Source of the DNA: Pseudonocardiales bacterium
Lineage (GTDB): Bacteria > Actinomycetota > Actinomycetes > Mycobacteriales > Pseudonocardiaceae
Reading direction: 5' to 3'
Assembly (NCBI GenBank): GCA_019241525.1
Contig: JAFAWY010000059.1
Location: forward strand, 1-56,306
DNA length: 56,306 nt
Shown here: positions 3 to 56,306 of the stretch, in pieces
Layout: every line of letters starts with the position of its first letter
How positions within the stretch are numbered: position 1 is the first letter of the stretch
The notes under the pieces: generated by a model
Told to the model about the DNA's origin: nothing
What the model saw: only the letters and a program-made list of their open reading frames with translations
Databases searched by the model: none
Position numbers and translations under genes: made by a program

Positions 3-1841
3 CTCGCTGCCACGCTAGGCGCGCAGATCCTGCTCGCACCTGGTGCCGGGGCCGCTGGATTCGTCCCGATCAGCGGCTCCGGTTCCGGCTGGAGCTCGAA
101 TTTGTTGGATCAATGGCGGCGGGGTGTCAACAACCTTTACGGCATGATGGTGAGCTTTTCGCCGGATAACTCGACGAATGGCCGTACCGACTTCCGGGCT
201 GGTCAAGTCGACTTCACCGTCTCAGACGTGCCCTACGCCACCAGCGAGGAAGGCATTGCTGACCCACCCCCAGCACGGCCTTTCGGATACCTGCCGATCG
301 TCGCGGGCGGCACCGCGTTCATGTACAACCTCACGATCGGTGACAAGCGCGTCACCAACCTTCGACTGTCCGGCGAGACCATCGCGAAGATCTTCACCCA
401 GGCAATCACCAACTGGGCTGATCCGGCGATCAAAGCCGACAACCCCGGGCTCGCCCTTCCCGCGAGGCGCATCGTGCCCGTGGTGCGGTCAGACCCCGCG
501 GGTCCCACCGAGCAGTTCACCACCTGGTTGGCCAGCCAGTACCCGACGATCTGGAATCCCTATTGCGAACGTGCCGGCAGGCAACTCGCACACTGCGGGT
601 CGGCCTCGTCCTACCCACTGATGCCAGGCATGCAAGCCATGGCGGAATCGGCCGGGCTGACCGGGTTCGTCGCGCAGGGCTCCAACGACGGCGCGATCAC
701 CTACGTTGAGTACTCCTACGCCCGCAAGGCGGGTCTTCCCGTCGCCAAGGTGCTAAACGCTGCCAACTACTACGTCGAGCCCACCGCTGGCAATGTGGCT
801 CTGGCCTTGCTGGCGGCAAAGGTGCGACCAGACCTGACGCAGGACCTGAGCCAGGTCTACAGCGATCCCGATCCGCGCGCCTACCCGCTGTCCAGCTACA
901 GCTATATGATCGTTCCCCAAGCGCGGGCTGCCAACTTCGGCACTGACAAGGGCCGCACGCTATCTGAGTTCGCCTATTACGCAGTGTGCGACGGGCAGCA
1001 GCAGGCCGAGACGCTGGGTTACGCACCGTTACCGATCAACCTCGTCCAAGCTGCCGTCGTCCAGATCAACCAAGTTCCCGGCGCTACCCAAAAGATCAGT
1101 AGTTTTGACCTGACGAACTGCCACAACCCGACGTTGTCCGTCGATGGCGCCGATCAGCTGATCAAAAACGTGCCGCAGCCACCACCCTGTGACCTCAAGT
1201 CAGCGTTGACTCAGTGCGCCAGCGGTACCGGTGGCGCACTGGCGCCGACGGCTACCACCATCACGCTGGACATGTCTCCCGCTTCGCCGTTGGCGGCGAA
1301 CGCCGTGGAGACCCTGGCGGCGACGGTCCGGCCTTCCTCGGTATCAGGCACGGTGCAGTTCAAAGACGGGGTAAGCAGTATCGGTGGCCCGGTGGCCGTC
1401 TCCGGCGGCACCGCATCGACGACCACGACGTTGGCACCGGGGAACCACTCATTGACCGCGGTGTTCACCCCCACGGATCTGTCGGACCTGAACGCATCAA
1501 CGTCCCCGGCGATATCCGTAGTGGTCGATGCGCCGGCCGGCGCAAAGGTCACCAGGACCACGTTCACGGTGATCCCGAGCGGTCCGATCATTCAAGGCGT
1601 TCCGGTGATCCTCGTCGCGCAGGTGGCGCCCGCGAATGCCGCAGGCACGGTCCAATTCATGGACGGAGACACCCCATTGGGTGCGCCACGGCCGGTCTTC
1701 GGTGGTTTCGCCCTGATGGTCACCTCGCAGCTGACCAAGGGAACGCATTCCCTGACCGCAACGTTTACCCCCGCCAATCTGGCGACGTTCGCCCCCTCGG
1801 CGCCGCTACCGGTATCGCTCAGCGTGACCGGGCTGTCATAG
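3..1841 (+). CDS. PstS-like substrate-binding protein with C-terminal Ig-like repeats (5' truncated)
   Basis: The frame is open from the first bases of the window, so the N-terminus lies outside it. Near the start, an Ala/Gly-rich stretch that could end a signal peptide leads into ISGSGSGWSSN, which resembles the phosphate-contacting Ser/Gly loop of PstS proteins. DFRAGQVDFTVSDVP and the later KIFTQAITNWADPAI also fit the PstS/SBP fold. After about residue 415 come two roughly 100-residue Ig-like repeats of the Big_3 type, marked by GTVQFKDG and GTVQFMDG. There is no LPXTG sorting signal and the protein ends shortly after the second repeat. It is probably secreted and surface-associated. Binding of phosphate is inferred; another oxyanion is possible. 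It is separate from the complete pst operon at 15.4 kb. Confidence 0.85.
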   Translation, partial: LAATLGAQILLAPGAGAAGFVPISGSGSGWSSNLLDQWRRGVNNLYGMMVSFSPDNSTNGRTDFRAGQVDFTVSDVPYATSEEGIADPPPARPFGYLPIVAGGTAFMYNLTIGDKRVTNLRLSGETIAKIFTQAITNWADPAIKADNPGLALPARRIVPVVRSDPAGPTEQFTTWLASQYPTIWNPYCERAGRQLAHCGSASSYPLMPGMQAMAESAGLTGFVAQGSNDGAITYVEYSYARKAGLPVAKVLNAANYYVEPTAGNVALALLAAKVRPDLTQDLSQVYSDPDPRAYPLSSYSYMIVPQARAANFGTDKGRTLSEFAYYAVCDGQQQAETLGYAPLPINLVQAAVVQINQVPGATQKISSFDLTNCHNPTLSVDGADQLIKNVPQPPPCDLKSALTQCASGTGGALAPTATTITLDMSPASPLAANAVETLAATVRPSSVSGTVQFKDGVSSIGGPVAVSGGTASTTTTLAPGNHSLTAVFTPTDLSDLNASTSPAISVVVDAPAGAKVTRTTFTVIPSGPIIQGVPVILVAQVAPANAAGTVQFMDGDTPLGAPRPVFGGFALMVTSQLTKGTHSLTATFTPANLATFAPSAPLPVSLSVTGLS

Positions 1842-4108: not shown

Positions 4109-4280
4109 GTGTCGTCTCCTACTGTTTGCGCCGATTCCCGACCCGGGGGCAACTGTAGCTTCCGGGTGTCCCATCCAGCACTCTTCCGAACTGATGATCA
4201 CGTTCGCGGTCATCACGACCGCACAGGGTGATGTCGCATTTTCGCTAGCTTCGGCCTGCGGTCACGGCAATGCTGGGATC

Positions 4281-5750
4281 GTGCATGAGGACGTCGAGCG
4301 GTGCGTACGCGCGGTGCAGTCGAAGGATGCGCGATTCGACGGCTGGTTTTTCGTCGCGGTGGTCACAACCGGCATTTATTGTCGACCAAGCTGCCCGGTG
4401 GTGCCGCCCAAGCCGGCGAATATGCGCTTCTACCCCAGCGCGGCGGCGGCGCAGCTGGTCGGATTCCGAGCGTGCAAGCGGTGCCGGCCAGATGCCAGCC
4501 CCGGATCTCCGCAGTGGAACGAGCGCGCTGATCTGGTGGCTCGGGCGATGCGGTTGATCGCCGATGGAGTGGTCGACCGGGAGGGTGTTCCTGGGCTGGC
4601 CGCCCGGCTGGGATACAGCATCCGGCAGATCCAGCGGCAGTTGCTTGCCGAGTTAGGGGCTGGCCCGCTGGCGTTGGCGCGCGCCCAGCGCGCCCAGACT
4701 GCGCGGCTGCTGATTGAGACGAGTTCGTTGCCGATGAGCGACGTGGCCTTTGCAGCGGGCTTCGCCACGGTGCGGGCGTTCAACGACACCGTGCGGGAAG
4801 TCTTTGCCCTCACGCCAACCGAGCTGCGTGCTCGGGCCGCGCGCCGGCAATCGCCGGCCGCGTCTGGATCGCTGCTGCTGCGCCTGCCGTTCCGCGCGCC
4901 GCTATGCCCGGACAACCTGTTCGGGCACTTGGCAGCAACCGCTGTACCCGGTGTGGAGGAGTGGCGTGACGGGGCATACCGCCGCACTTTGCGGCTGCCG
5001 CACGGGTCCGGTGTCGCGGCGCTGCGACCGCTGCCTGATCACGTCGAGTGCCGGTTGGCCTTGATGGAACTCCGGGATCTGGCGACGGCTATCGCTCGCT
5101 GCCGGTGGCTGCTCGACCTCGATGCTGACCCGGTGGCCGTTGACGAGCTGCTGCGTAGTGACCCGGTGCTCGCTTCGCTGGTGGACAAGAATCCCGGTCG
5201 CCGGGTACCCCGCACCGTCGATGGGCCGGAATTTGCGGTGCGCGCGGTGCTGGGGCAACAGGTGTCAACCAAGGCGGCCCGCACCCACGCCAGGCGGCTG
5301 GTGGCCGCATACGGTGACCCGATGAACGATCCCGGAGGCGGCCTGACCCACCTGTTCCCCGACATCGCAGCGCTGGCCTCGCTGGACCCGGCTGCGCTCG
5401 CCGTACCGCGGGCACGCCGCACCACGCTCACCACCCTGGTCAGCGTGCTGGCCACCGGTGAGATCGACCTCAGCCCCGCGAGTGACTGGCAACAGGCCCG
5501 GGCTCAGCTTGCTCGCCTACCCGGTTTCGGTCCCTGGACCATCGAGACGATCGCGATGCGCGCGCTGGGTGATCCGGACGCTTTCGTCGCCGCCGATCTG
5601 GGGGTACGCCGCGCTGCCCGGGACCTCGGCCTTCCGGTCAGCGCCTTGGGTCTGACCCGCCACGCCGCCGGATGGCGGCCGTGGCGCGCATACGCCGTTC
5701 AGTACCTGTGGGCGTCCGGTGATCACGCCATCAATCGGTCGCCGGCATGA
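4281..5750 (+). CDS. alkA: Ada-type regulator / 3-methyladenine glycosylase fusion
   Basis: A three-part protein of about 489 residues. Residues 1-75 form the Ada zinc domain with RFDGWFFVAV, GIYCRPSCP and RACKRCRP; the zinc and methyl-phosphotriester cysteines are C34, C38, C65 and C68. Residues about 85-185 are an AraC-type double helix-turn-helix. The rest is an AlkA domain with LPGFGPWTIETIAMRALG and an Asp in FVAADLGV placed like the catalytic Asp of helix-hairpin-helix glycosylases. In this family the N-terminal half senses methylphosphotriesters and activates transcription, while AlkA excises alkylated bases. The start GTG 4281 is by family length; its ribosome site is weak. Ogt follows after 27 bases, so this is probably an adaptive alkylation-repair operon. 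Confidence 0.93.
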   Translation: MHEDVERCVRAVQSKDARFDGWFFVAVVTTGIYCRPSCPVVPPKPANMRFYPSAAAAQLVGFRACKRCRPDASPGSPQWNERADLVARAMRLIADGVVDREGVPGLAARLGYSIRQIQRQLLAELGAGPLALARAQRAQTARLLIETSSLPMSDVAFAAGFATVRAFNDTVREVFALTPTELRARAARRQSPAASGSLLLRLPFRAPLCPDNLFGHLAATAVPGVEEWRDGAYRRTLRLPHGSGVAALRPLPDHVECRLALMELRDLATAIARCRWLLDLDADPVAVDELLRSDPVLASLVDKNPGRRVPRTVDGPEFAVRAVLGQQVSTKAARTHARRLVAAYGDPMNDPGGGLTHLFPDIAALASLDPAALAVPRARRTTLTTLVSVLATGEIDLSPASDWQQARAQLARLPGFGPWTIETIAMRALGDPDAFVAADLGVRRAARDLGLPVSALGLTRHAAGWRPWRAYAVQYLWASGDHAINRSPA

Positions 5751-52994: not shown

Positions 52995-53021
52995 CGGCGG
53001 ATTCCAGTGATCGTCGCAACA
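52995..53021. repeat. Left inverted repeat of the IS30 element
   Basis: This 27-base sequence, with GGCGGATTCCAGTGATCG near its outer end, is perfectly complementary to 55012-55038. It marks the left end of the element, 22 bases before the transposase start. Confidence 0.92.
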
Positions 53022-53043
53022 CCGGAGGTATTCGGGAGTTGCG

Positions 53044-54312
53044 ATGGCTGGCAGGGGTCGGCCGGGTTCGGCGCCGCAGACGGAAAAGCGTGAGCAGTTC
53101 GCTCGGTTGATTGCTCAGGGTGTCAGTAGCTCGCAGGCTTGTCGGATCGTCGGGGTGAACCGGAGAACGGGGAAACGTTGGCGACACGGGCGAACAATCA
53201 CCAGTTCCACCGGCAAGCGGCGGCACTATCCGCCGGTGATCAACGTCGGGAAGCGGGAGATCTCGTCGCGGTTTCTGTCCGAGGACGAGCGGGTGCGCAT
53301 CGGGGATCTGCATCGGGCGGGCCACGGCGTGCGGGAGATCGCCGCAGAGATCGGCCGCAATGCTTCGACGATCAGTCGGGAGCTGCGCCACAACCGCGAC
53401 TTGGCCAGCGGCTCGTACCGGCCGTTTATGGCGCAGCGCATGGCGGTGGAACGTCGGGCGCGTCCTGGGCGGGGCAAGCTGATCCGGGATCCGCAGCTGC
53501 GCGGTTTTGTCGCCGAGCGGTTGACCCGGCGCTGGAGCCCGGAACAGATCGCCCACGCACTGCGCATGCAGTTCCCCGATCAACCCGAGCGCCACCTCGC
53601 CGCGGAAACGATCTACCAGGCGGTCTACCGCCCGGAGCTGGGTGGGCTAGGCCGCACGCTGCCCAAGGCGCTGCGCACCGGACGACGCCGCCGTCGGCCT
53701 CGACGCCATCCCCAGGCGCGCCGGCGCGGGGTGCTGCCCGGCATGACGATGATTGATCAGCGTCCTGACGAGGCGGCTGACCGGGAGGTACCCGGTCATT
53801 GGGAAGGCGATTTGATCACCGGCGCGCACAACCGCTCGGCTATCGTGACCGTGGTTGAACGCGCCAGCAGGTTTACCCTGCTGTGTCATCTGCCTGAGGG
53901 TCGGCACACCGCCGAAGCGGTTCGCGACGCCCTGGTCACGGCCTTTTCCGGGCTCCCGGCCCACTTGCGCTGCTCGCTGACCTGGGATCAGGGCTCCGAG
54001 ATGGCCTTGCATACCGAGATCGCCCGACTGGTGGAGATGCCGGTGTTCTTCTGCGACAAGGCCAGCCCGTGGCAACGACCCACCAACGAAAACACCAACG
54101 GACTGCTCCGCCAGTACTTTCCCAAGCACACCGACCTGCGCGAGCACGACGCCGACCGAATCGCCGAGGTCGCCGCCGAGCTCAACGCCCGACCCCGCAA
54201 GACCCTCGGCTGGGACACCCCCGCCGAGCGCCTGGCCCAAGCCAGCGCACAGACCGCCGATAGCGCTCCCTGGGTCAGGGCGCGACGTTGCCCTGCCAGG
54301 ATGGCGCGATGA
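53044..54312 (+). CDS. IS30-family transposase
   Basis: A 422-residue transposase, somewhat longer than usual. An N-terminal helix-turn-helix (GVSSSQACRIVGVNRRTGKR), a second one near residue 95 (GHGVREIAAEIGRNASTISR) and a DDE catalytic core: the Asp in GHWEGDLITGAHNRSAIVTV, the Asp in LTWDQGSEMALH and the Glu in PWQRPTNENTNGLLRQYFPK. ATG 53044 has GGGAG about 6 bases upstream. Frame and catalytic residues are intact, so the element may be active. Confidence 0.95.
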   Translation: MAGRGRPGSAPQTEKREQFARLIAQGVSSSQACRIVGVNRRTGKRWRHGRTITSSTGKRRHYPPVINVGKREISSRFLSEDERVRIGDLHRAGHGVREIAAEIGRNASTISRELRHNRDLASGSYRPFMAQRMAVERRARPGRGKLIRDPQLRGFVAERLTRRWSPEQIAHALRMQFPDQPERHLAAETIYQAVYRPELGGLGRTLPKALRTGRRRRRPRRHPQARRRGVLPGMTMIDQRPDEAADREVPGHWEGDLITGAHNRSAIVTVVERASRFTLLCHLPEGRHTAEAVRDALVTAFSGLPAHLRCSLTWDQGSEMALHTEIARLVEMPVFFCDKASPWQRPTNENTNGLLRQYFPKHTDLREHDADRIAEVAAELNARPRKTLGWDTPAERLAQASAQTADSAPWVRARRCPARMAR

Positions 54313-54974
54313 CCGACATGCGACGGCGCGCCGCGGAACCACCGGTAGGGCCGCTGGACATCCAGCTCAAGCCGGGCCTAGCCGAGGAGACCCTGCAGGA
54401 GCTGGGGCCGTTGCTGGCCGAGGAAGGTATCGACGTCGACCACATCGACGTGCCCGACCTCGAGACCCTGCAACAGGCGCTCAACCGGGCGGTCGAGCGG
54501 CACAACATGGCTCGGTTCACCCCCGTCGGAAAGCCACGCGAGCTGGCCGTCACCACGCTGCGGCTGGTCATCACGGCGATCACACAGGACAACACCGCCC
54601 TCGCGGCCCAGCTGTTAGACCAGGTCCAACCCGAGTCACCAGACAACTCCACCGCTACCGTCGCCAGCTGCATCGGTGTCGTGTTGGGTCTGCTCGACCA
54701 GTGGCTATCCACACCCGACCACCAAGCGCCGACAAGGCTGGGCGATCGGGTACGGCTGCCCGCCGGGCACTGGCAAGGCAAGCGCGCCGCCACCGACATC
54801 GTCGTGCTGGCGCGCAAGGGACGAGCCTTTCGCTCCCTGGGCACCCTGCTCATTCGCCAAGGCGGCCCGCAGGTCCTCTACGGCAGTGCCCTGGCCCTGG
54901 CCGCCACCATCCAGACCTGGTCAGCCGCCACTGACACGCCGGTCACCGAGCTGACCCACACAGCCGTGCACTGA
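54309..54974 (+). CDS. Passenger protein inside the IS30 element, unknown function
   Basis: A 221-residue protein whose ATG overlaps the transposase TGA (ATGA), showing translational coupling. It is hydrophilic, with acidic helices in the first half (LETLQQALNRAVERHNMARF) and basic segments in the second (GHWQGKRAATDIVVLARKGR, RSLGTLLIRQGGPQVLYGSA). No catalytic motif or membrane segment is recognised. Because it is confined between the terminal repeats it should move with the element; a role in target choice, regulation or host interaction is guesswork. Confidence 0.8.
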   Translation: MTDMRRRAAEPPVGPLDIQLKPGLAEETLQELGPLLAEEGIDVDHIDVPDLETLQQALNRAVERHNMARFTPVGKPRELAVTTLRLVITAITQDNTALAAQLLDQVQPESPDNSTATVASCIGVVLGLLDQWLSTPDHQAPTRLGDRVRLPAGHWQGKRAATDIVVLARKGRAFRSLGTLLIRQGGPQVLYGSALALAATIQTWSAATDTPVTELTHTAVH

Positions 54975-55011
54975 CCTCCACACGACTACGATCCGCGATC
55001 ACCACGTCACC

Positions 55012-55038
55012 TGTTGCGACGATCACTGGAATCCGCCG
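55012..55038. repeat. Right inverted repeat of the IS30 element
   Basis: This 27-base sequence is the perfect inverse of 52995-53021. Its inner edge is 37 bases from the passenger gene stop. The stop codon of the minus-strand membrane protein gene (55023-55025) lies inside it, so the element supplies the last few residues of that protein. Confidence 0.92.
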
Positions 55039-55771: not shown

Positions 55772-56306
55772 GTGACCTCTCGATGCCATGACCGCACGGC
55801 GACCTCTGCGTGTCGAACAGCGATCGCTAAGTTAGCAAAAGGGAAACCGTAGTCGGGCTCAGTGTAATACCACAATACTCCCTCACTATCGCGCACTTAC
55901 CGCCCGATGTTACCGATGAGCAAAATATTACCAAGTCAATCCACTAGACGAAGCAAGTAGACGGCCAGCATCGATCAGCTGCCGCACCACACCACACCGT
56001 GATCACCCATGGTGACAACTCGCAGGACCTGCACGTACCAGTTACTCACAAGGCTTCCGCCCCGAGCAGCGCTCACGTCTGATCATCGTCAGGGAGCTGG
56101 AACGGACTCGGCGCAACCAATACCCACAGACCAATACACACCGGCATATTCCCGCAGCTCAGGCGGCATGGAACGACACTGGCCGGTACACGAATGCACG
56201 GCCAATCAGCCTTCACACCCAAGAACACCCCCGATCTCGCAGGAGAACAAACCCGTGCCTCCGGCAGGCCTCGGCTTCAAAATAGACCACAGATGACCAG
56301 CGTTTG
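55772..56306. other. Region ahead of the coupled pair, no clear gene
   Basis: No convincing gene is seen up to the end of the window. The stretch 55820-55960 is relatively AT-rich and probably holds the promoter of the minus-strand pair. A plus-strand frame from 56009 lacks a ribosome site and protein-like composition. Confidence 0.35.

Follow-up and report, generated by a model that had tools for sequence, protein, structure and literature searches.

An IS30-family element carrying a passenger gene whose relatives also occur behind an IS256-family transposase

Introduction

IS elements are usually viewed as transposase-only, and those bearing passengers as one-off captures. The IS30 family is recognised by terminal inverted repeats some 20-30 bp long and a target duplication of 2-3 bp, and a transposase as sole gene is usual, though not defining, for its members. 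The transposase of IS1096 belongs to the ISL3 family, and tnpR, the second gene of this element, encodes a PRiA4_ORF3 protein. One account calls tnpR a resolvase and dispensable for transposition (PMC5681481). IS with passenger genes within their repeats are a known kind, the transporter IS (tIS), including IS481 and ISL3 elements whose passengers encode ArsR and permeases, as well as ISDsp3 (PMC6305408, PMC9330008, PMC7986276). The accessible portions of these accounts name no IS30-family tIS and no passenger common to IS30 and IS256. One IS30-family member, ISArsp15 (1,862 bp), is listed with repeats related to those described below and 0 passenger genes according to its authors (PMC6305408).

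The element analysed here lies in a window of 56,306 nucleotides, which is contig C115 of a 4.7-Mb genome (G000). Like tIS, it has a passenger gene (PAS) within its repeats and, like IS1096, a second gene, although its transposase (TNP) belongs to a different family from that of IS1096. With the IS30 family (NF033563) it has in common the transposase family, related repeats and 3-bp duplications, the latter in copies of genome G164 and of locus L038. Passenger-bearing IS being already known, what appears to be new, within the sources accessible to us, is an IS30 member with a passenger and the occurrence of PAS in both IS30 and IS256 elements. A search confined to the open literature found no IS30 member with a passenger, no paper naming the element or PAS, and no passenger common to IS30 and IS256. 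One uncharacterised protein family seems to have been taken up by two unrelated IS families in the same slot, and it is also found alone and fused. One-gene and two-gene relatives within each family are natural pairs for testing directly what a passenger does to transposition or to its host.

The element in the window

An earlier note on this DNA had described perfect 27-bp terminal repeats, an intact transposase and a 221-aa second gene, all of which were confirmed on the sequence (Table 1); the two repeats are 27 nt each and 100% complementary. The true element most likely spans 52996-55037 (2042 bp, with 26-bp repeats), because the target duplications of the G164 copies place the ends one base further in.

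Table 1. Features of the two-gene element, in window positions
Feature	Position	Strand	Remarks
Left terminal inverted repeat	52995..53021	+	element proper probably starts at 52996 (target duplications in G164)
TNP, IS30-family DDE transposase, 422 aa	53044..54312	+	single open frame; two N-terminal HTH domains, rve core
Candidate PAS translation start context	54298..54308	+	AGGA, 7 nt, then ATG
PAS, passenger gene, 221 aa from ATG	54309..54974	+	predicted all-helical; no convincing Pfam/NCBIfam/PHROG/PADLOC family
Right terminal inverted repeat	55012..55038	-	element proper probably stops at 55037 (target duplications in G164)

By its matches TNP is a member of the IS30 family: it hits the NCBIfam IS30 transposase model NF033563 at E 6.2e-84 (281.9 bits, cut-off 80), and its rve core hits PF00665 with 37.4 bits (cut-off 32.6). 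The catalytic residues, which we take to be D256, D315 and E349, were placed by the IS30 motifs WEGDLI, TWDQGSEM and NENTNG. After residue ~397, in the part reaching PAS, the C-terminus of TNP aligns with neither the G164 TNP nor that of a second copy in the same genome (contig C79). Near the right end of the window, positions 56080-56273 have matches in several genomes of the genus, frequently at two or more sites in a single genome, and might represent a widespread gene family or a dispersed repeat.

Copies of the element and evidence of movement

The earlier note had looked to several copies with both genes as support for its reading, and seven full-length ones were found in four genomes: the window copy, the C79 copy, three in G164, and one each at loci L030 and L038. 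All seven have PAS within the repeats. Target duplications are present at five of the seven. The three G164 copies are identical (2256 bp) and are each flanked by a different 3-bp duplication (GTG, CCG and TCA), while the L038 copy, from Pseudonocardia parietis, has TAC on each flank. The duplication at L030 reads AGG or GAGGC (3 or 5 bp), according to whether the element is taken to include the outermost C/G pair. The window copy has CAC on its left flank and GAC on its right, hence no duplication, and none was found at the flanks of the C79 copy. The identical two-gene copies with duplications indicate that a passenger unrelated to the transposase, lying inside the repeats, has moved with them, as in tIS; judged from these sequences, the two-gene copies move as units.

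The C79 copy is 80% identical to that of the window over the whole length, and the similarity is uneven, reaching 94-99% over the first 700 bp (52996-53700) and 52-86% beyond; this mosaic looks like the product of recombination between copies. A 3' (right-end) fragment of the element lies on contig C117 of the same genome. Further copies, which retain the two genes or parts of them, are broken or cut by contig ends (G009/L031, L032, L051/L029 and L037). PAS has an in-frame stop in L032, TNP is split across two frames in L051/L029, and L037 is an IS30 remnant that has lost the TNP end and the right end.

When the element and its flanks were searched against ten relatives of the genus, the match table held no clean empty site for the window copy. 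The same table listed 187 bp of TNP at 97% in G009:C3 and a left end of the element in G007:C8, together with TNP pieces cut by contig ends in G008 and G005 (L125, L126). In G009, PAS was found on contigs C289, C240 and C109 only. On C240 (locus L025), a PAS piece and a TNP piece (4127-4324, 4525-4710) lie close together on opposite strands at the contig end; this is a rearranged copy of the element.

The junction between TNP and PAS

In the window, the PAS ATG overlaps the TNP stop codon within the tetranucleotide ATGA at 54309-54312. The earlier note had taken the two genes to be translationally coupled. The overlap is real, but coupling is not kept across the element types, in which the spacing between the TNP stop and the PAS start measures -4 nt in the window, +32 in C79, ~+263 in G164, ~+340 in L030 and ~+70 to +91 in L038, where the start codon is uncertain. 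The 4-nt overlap is thus peculiar to the window among the five element types, and gaps ranging from -4 to ~+340 nt rule out translational coupling as a conserved trait.

The candidate start context of PAS (Table 1) was also found in C79 and L030, despite their other distances from TNP, and was not seen in G164 or L038. Since the spacing of AGGA and ATG is kept in the window, C79 and L030 while the distance to TNP varies, these sequences suggest that PAS has its own translation start.

Two element types, G164 (77 aa) and L030 (~73 aa), contain a third small ORF between TNP and PAS. The copies compared, L021:2290-2520 (+) and L030 ~1403-1630 (-), have opposite orientations and resemble each other over a stretch of ~41 residues. 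A weak relative of the L030 small ORF follows the gene of an 847-aa protein on a Pseudonocardia autotrophica plasmid, and the 847-aa protein contains a sub-threshold Phage_integrase match.

The PAS protein

Nothing convincing was found for PAS in Pfam, NCBIfam, PHROGs or PADLOC. PADLOC defence models gave no family at E<=1, PF07929 (PRiA4_ORF3) did not match at E<=1, and the best sequence match in the PDB had an E value of 0.045. An AlphaFold2 model built from 23 sequences is all-helical, with ten helices, a mean pLDDT of 86 and a low-confidence N-terminus; Foldseek of this model against the PDB and BFVD returned nothing at E<=0.001.

GC-rich DNA contains many open frames, and one copy of PAS (L032) carries an in-frame stop, so that the second frame might be thought a chance open frame or a decayed remnant. 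We hold this to be scarcely credible, and it is refuted by the homologues, which are ~40-68% identical across most of the length, by dN/dS values below 1 in 28 of 28 pairs, and by the confidence of the model. The dN/dS values, from 0.25 to 0.67, are rough, with dS up to ~1. Such values are in keeping with a functional protein, and PAS seems to evolve under purifying selection.

Entry of PAS into the IS30 family

TNPs at least 66% identical to that of the window were found to have PAS behind them wherever the sequence is readable, completely in the window, C79, G164, L030 and L038 and partly in L031, L032 and L051; short TNP pieces, such as the 187 bp in G009:C3, were left out of this tally. 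The transposase-only state usual in the family is therefore not that of the close copies, as PAS is there in 7/7 full-length ones. More distant relatives lack it. Among 200 genomes of the order there are 42 TNP places, five of which have PAS, these being the window, C79 and G164 copies. From the remaining 37, 26 were fetched; they have 44-59% identity and none carries PAS, 24 of them being fully testable; the other two stop too early for a verdict, at 32 bp (L085) and 236 bp (L084) beyond TNP. A further 13 places at E<=1e-125 (52-58% identity) in 394 genomes of the class were likewise without PAS (0/13). In total, PAS is present at 0/37 of the fully testable TNP loci below 60% identity, and the sample held no TNP between 60 and 66%.

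An inverted-repeat pair was found at 11 of the 13 class places, which makes them one-gene elements of 1281-1325 bp, and in 10 of the 11 the repeat sequence is related to that of the window. Their right repeat ends 2-65 bp past the TNP match; in the window this distance is 724 bp. Two-gene elements measure 2.03-2.40 kb, compared with ~1.3 kb in these 11 one-gene relatives. As relatives below 60% identity are mostly one-gene elements of ~1.3 kb, PAS corresponds to an insert of ~0.7 kb reaching from the TNP stop to the right repeat. All five TNPs that are complete and bear PAS fall into a single clade (100/99) of a 31-TNP tree. Because they do so, and because the sampled relatives of 44-59% identity are without PAS, the gene most likely joined this IS30 branch a single time, at the site separating the TNP stop from the right repeat.

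The PAS tree is less simple. IS30-borne PAS do not form one group; four changes are needed, at least two of them forced, when the IS30 remnant L037 is scored as 'other'. Because this tree fails to unite them, PAS may have been swapped within the IS30 branch, or gained there more than once.

The proposal of the earlier note that PAS is a fixed part of the element was upheld for this IS30 branch, given its place inside the repeats in 7/7 copies and the single TNP clade. Copies without the second gene, which that note had regarded as contrary evidence, do occur among relatives below 60% TNP identity but not among close ones.

A PAS relative in an IS256-family element

A PAS relative, 44-46% identical, was found behind an IS256-family transposase (NF033543, E 1e-86) in Tsukamurella paurometabola, on plasmid pTpau01 and on the chromosome. 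Three of the four copies compared are 2270 bp long, with 24-bp repeats matching at 19/24 positions; the fourth has 2249 bp in common with the others and seems to be interrupted close to the left end. A 9-bp duplication, GGCAAGGCC, flanks one copy, and one copy has no duplication. Two plasmid copies (L062, L063) have the 9 bp AACCTTCGC in common, which adjoin one copy on its left and the other on its right, as after recombination between the two.

PAS is present in 1/16 genomes of this genus. The two IS256 relatives examined, in Mycolicibacterium rufum and Rhodococcus qingshengii, have transposases 75% and 77% identical to that of Tsukamurella and are one-gene elements of 1.46 kb without PAS, whose right repeat ends 27-34 bp past the stop. 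Their left repeats are identical to that of the Tsukamurella PAS element at 24/24 (M. rufum) and 21/24 positions (R. qingshengii). Among the matches listed, none of the other 14 IS256 records belongs to the nine PAS-bearing plasmid records.

PAS relatives therefore occupy the same slot in IS30 and IS256 elements, namely behind the transposase, on the same strand and inside the repeats. Because a PAS relative fills this slot in Tsukamurella and is missing from the two examined relatives of 75-77% identity, we conclude from these comparisons that PAS genes have probably undergone capture on two or more occasions, each time in this slot.

PAS outside recognised elements

The PAS family is rare and patchy. 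It was found, the genome of the window included, in 3/200 relatives, 3/397 genomes of the order and 6/394 of the class, whereas among 336 genomes of the phylum only that of the window has it. Nine of 72,556 plasmid records contain PAS, and one pattern-based scan of genome contigs gave 23 loci. Phage records contained none, and 22 pattern matches among viral contigs included no relative.

Many PAS loci, in Streptomycetaceae, Nocardioides and Nanopelagicales, are stand-alone genes without a recognised transposase. A repeat scan around 21 other PAS loci gave a weak 18/20 pair in L007, L010 and L047 and none in 18. Applied to three known elements as controls, the same scan found L030 and missed L008 and L038; since it misses two of three controls, there may be unrecognised elements around PAS.

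Two stand-alone PAS genes (L035:4887-5594 and L040:4318-5088) adjoin AbiE-type toxin-antitoxin genes. The neighbour in L035 is AbiEi_4 at 25.2 bits (cut-off 25), and those in L040 are DUF6036, above its cut-off, and AbiEii, below its cut-off.

These two neighbourhoods and the nine plasmid records would agree with PAS being part of a module, for defence, counter-defence or of the toxin-antitoxin type, by which the element or a plasmid is stabilised. We regard this as improbable, as PADLOC gave no match at E<=1, the transposase is the only partner gene of PAS in the window, C79 and Tsukamurella elements, and no neighbour family besides PAS and TNP is common to more than three of the 27 loci compared.

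Possible role of PAS

We think it rather probable that the element is a tIS of the IS30 family in which PAS is a captured accessory gene, dispensable for transposition. TNP would mobilise the entire 2.04-kb unit including PAS, which would have been captured into the slot that follows the TNP stop codon and precedes the right repeat. PAS would then be an accessory gene with its own translation start, rather than a core transposition factor. Its product, a small helical protein, might act on the host or the replicon, perhaps in regulation or as an interaction module; the gene would be retained for this action, which would favour the spread of elements carrying PAS. Considering the function of PAS by itself, a host- or replicon-directed accessory role receives slightly better than even weight, modulation of transposition is judged unlikely, and a small chance is left for a function of neither kind. 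A host or replicon role is placed above one in transposition because one-gene IS30 relatives without PAS have several copies per genome, including identical pairs on the TNP tree, and because PAS persists without a recognised transposase. Both observations weaken the suggestion of the earlier note that the second gene might control transposition.

The shared slot, though, could mean that PAS acts on the circle step of transposition, as IS30 and IS256 are both named circle-forming families (PMC7986276). PAS might accordingly be a modulator for circle-forming copy-out/paste-in elements, which would bind the transposase or the joined ends and set transposition frequency, copy number or target choice. 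We judge this unlikely, even though PAS lies downstream of the transposase, on the same strand and within the repeats in both families, and every near TNP relative with a readable downstream end carries it, which would be odd for an accessory gene if easily lost. Multiple copies per genome in the absence of PAS, seen for IS30 relatives only, argue against such a modulator, as do the PAS genes found apart from any recognised transposase and the variation of the TNP-PAS gap and coupling between element types; by analogy only, so does IS1096 tnpR, which is called dispensable for transposition (PMC5681481). More doubtful still is a version in which PAS is a control protein that transposases of different families could use, a helical module acquired separately into the same slot and tuning a step common to circle-forming IS30 and IS256 elements, e.g., circle formation or target capture.

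An accessory gene acting on host or replicon remains our preferred explanation, with two further points against it: no neighbour, fold or motif points to a host target, and the PAS tree may reflect swapping or repeated gain within the IS30 branch.

PAS fusions and PRiA4_ORF3 proteins

Eight loci without a recognised transposase encode PAS fusions of ~440-630 aa, six of them in Microbacteriaceae. The C-terminal part of four Subtercola fusions matches residues 294-527 of L108 (E 2e-49), a protein whose residues 89-272 form a PRiA4_ORF3 domain (PF07929) and whose best plasmid matches, covering residues 91-503, are named pRiA4b ORF-3 family proteins. L108 is the sole strong match to the Subtercola domain among 19 PRiA4_ORF3 loci fetched, which also counts against an accessory role. 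Fusion partners of another type matched six frames weakly (E 6e-5 to 3e-3), the majority being PRiA4_ORF3 proteins. A structure model of the fusion C-terminal domain had a pLDDT of 39 and was left unused. As the C-terminal parts of the fusions match PRiA4_ORF3-bearing proteins, it seems that PAS and PRiA4_ORF3 can adjoin the same kind of partner domain. Unlike tnpR of IS1096, PAS is without a PRiA4_ORF3 domain, and it is the partner domain in the fusions that is common to the two.

A DUF1016/YhcG PDDEXK nuclease gene adjoins PAS on a Xylanimonas plasmid (L010:1235-2290), and another adjoins a pRiA4b ORF-3 gene on a Pseudarthrobacter plasmid (L146:4388-5440).
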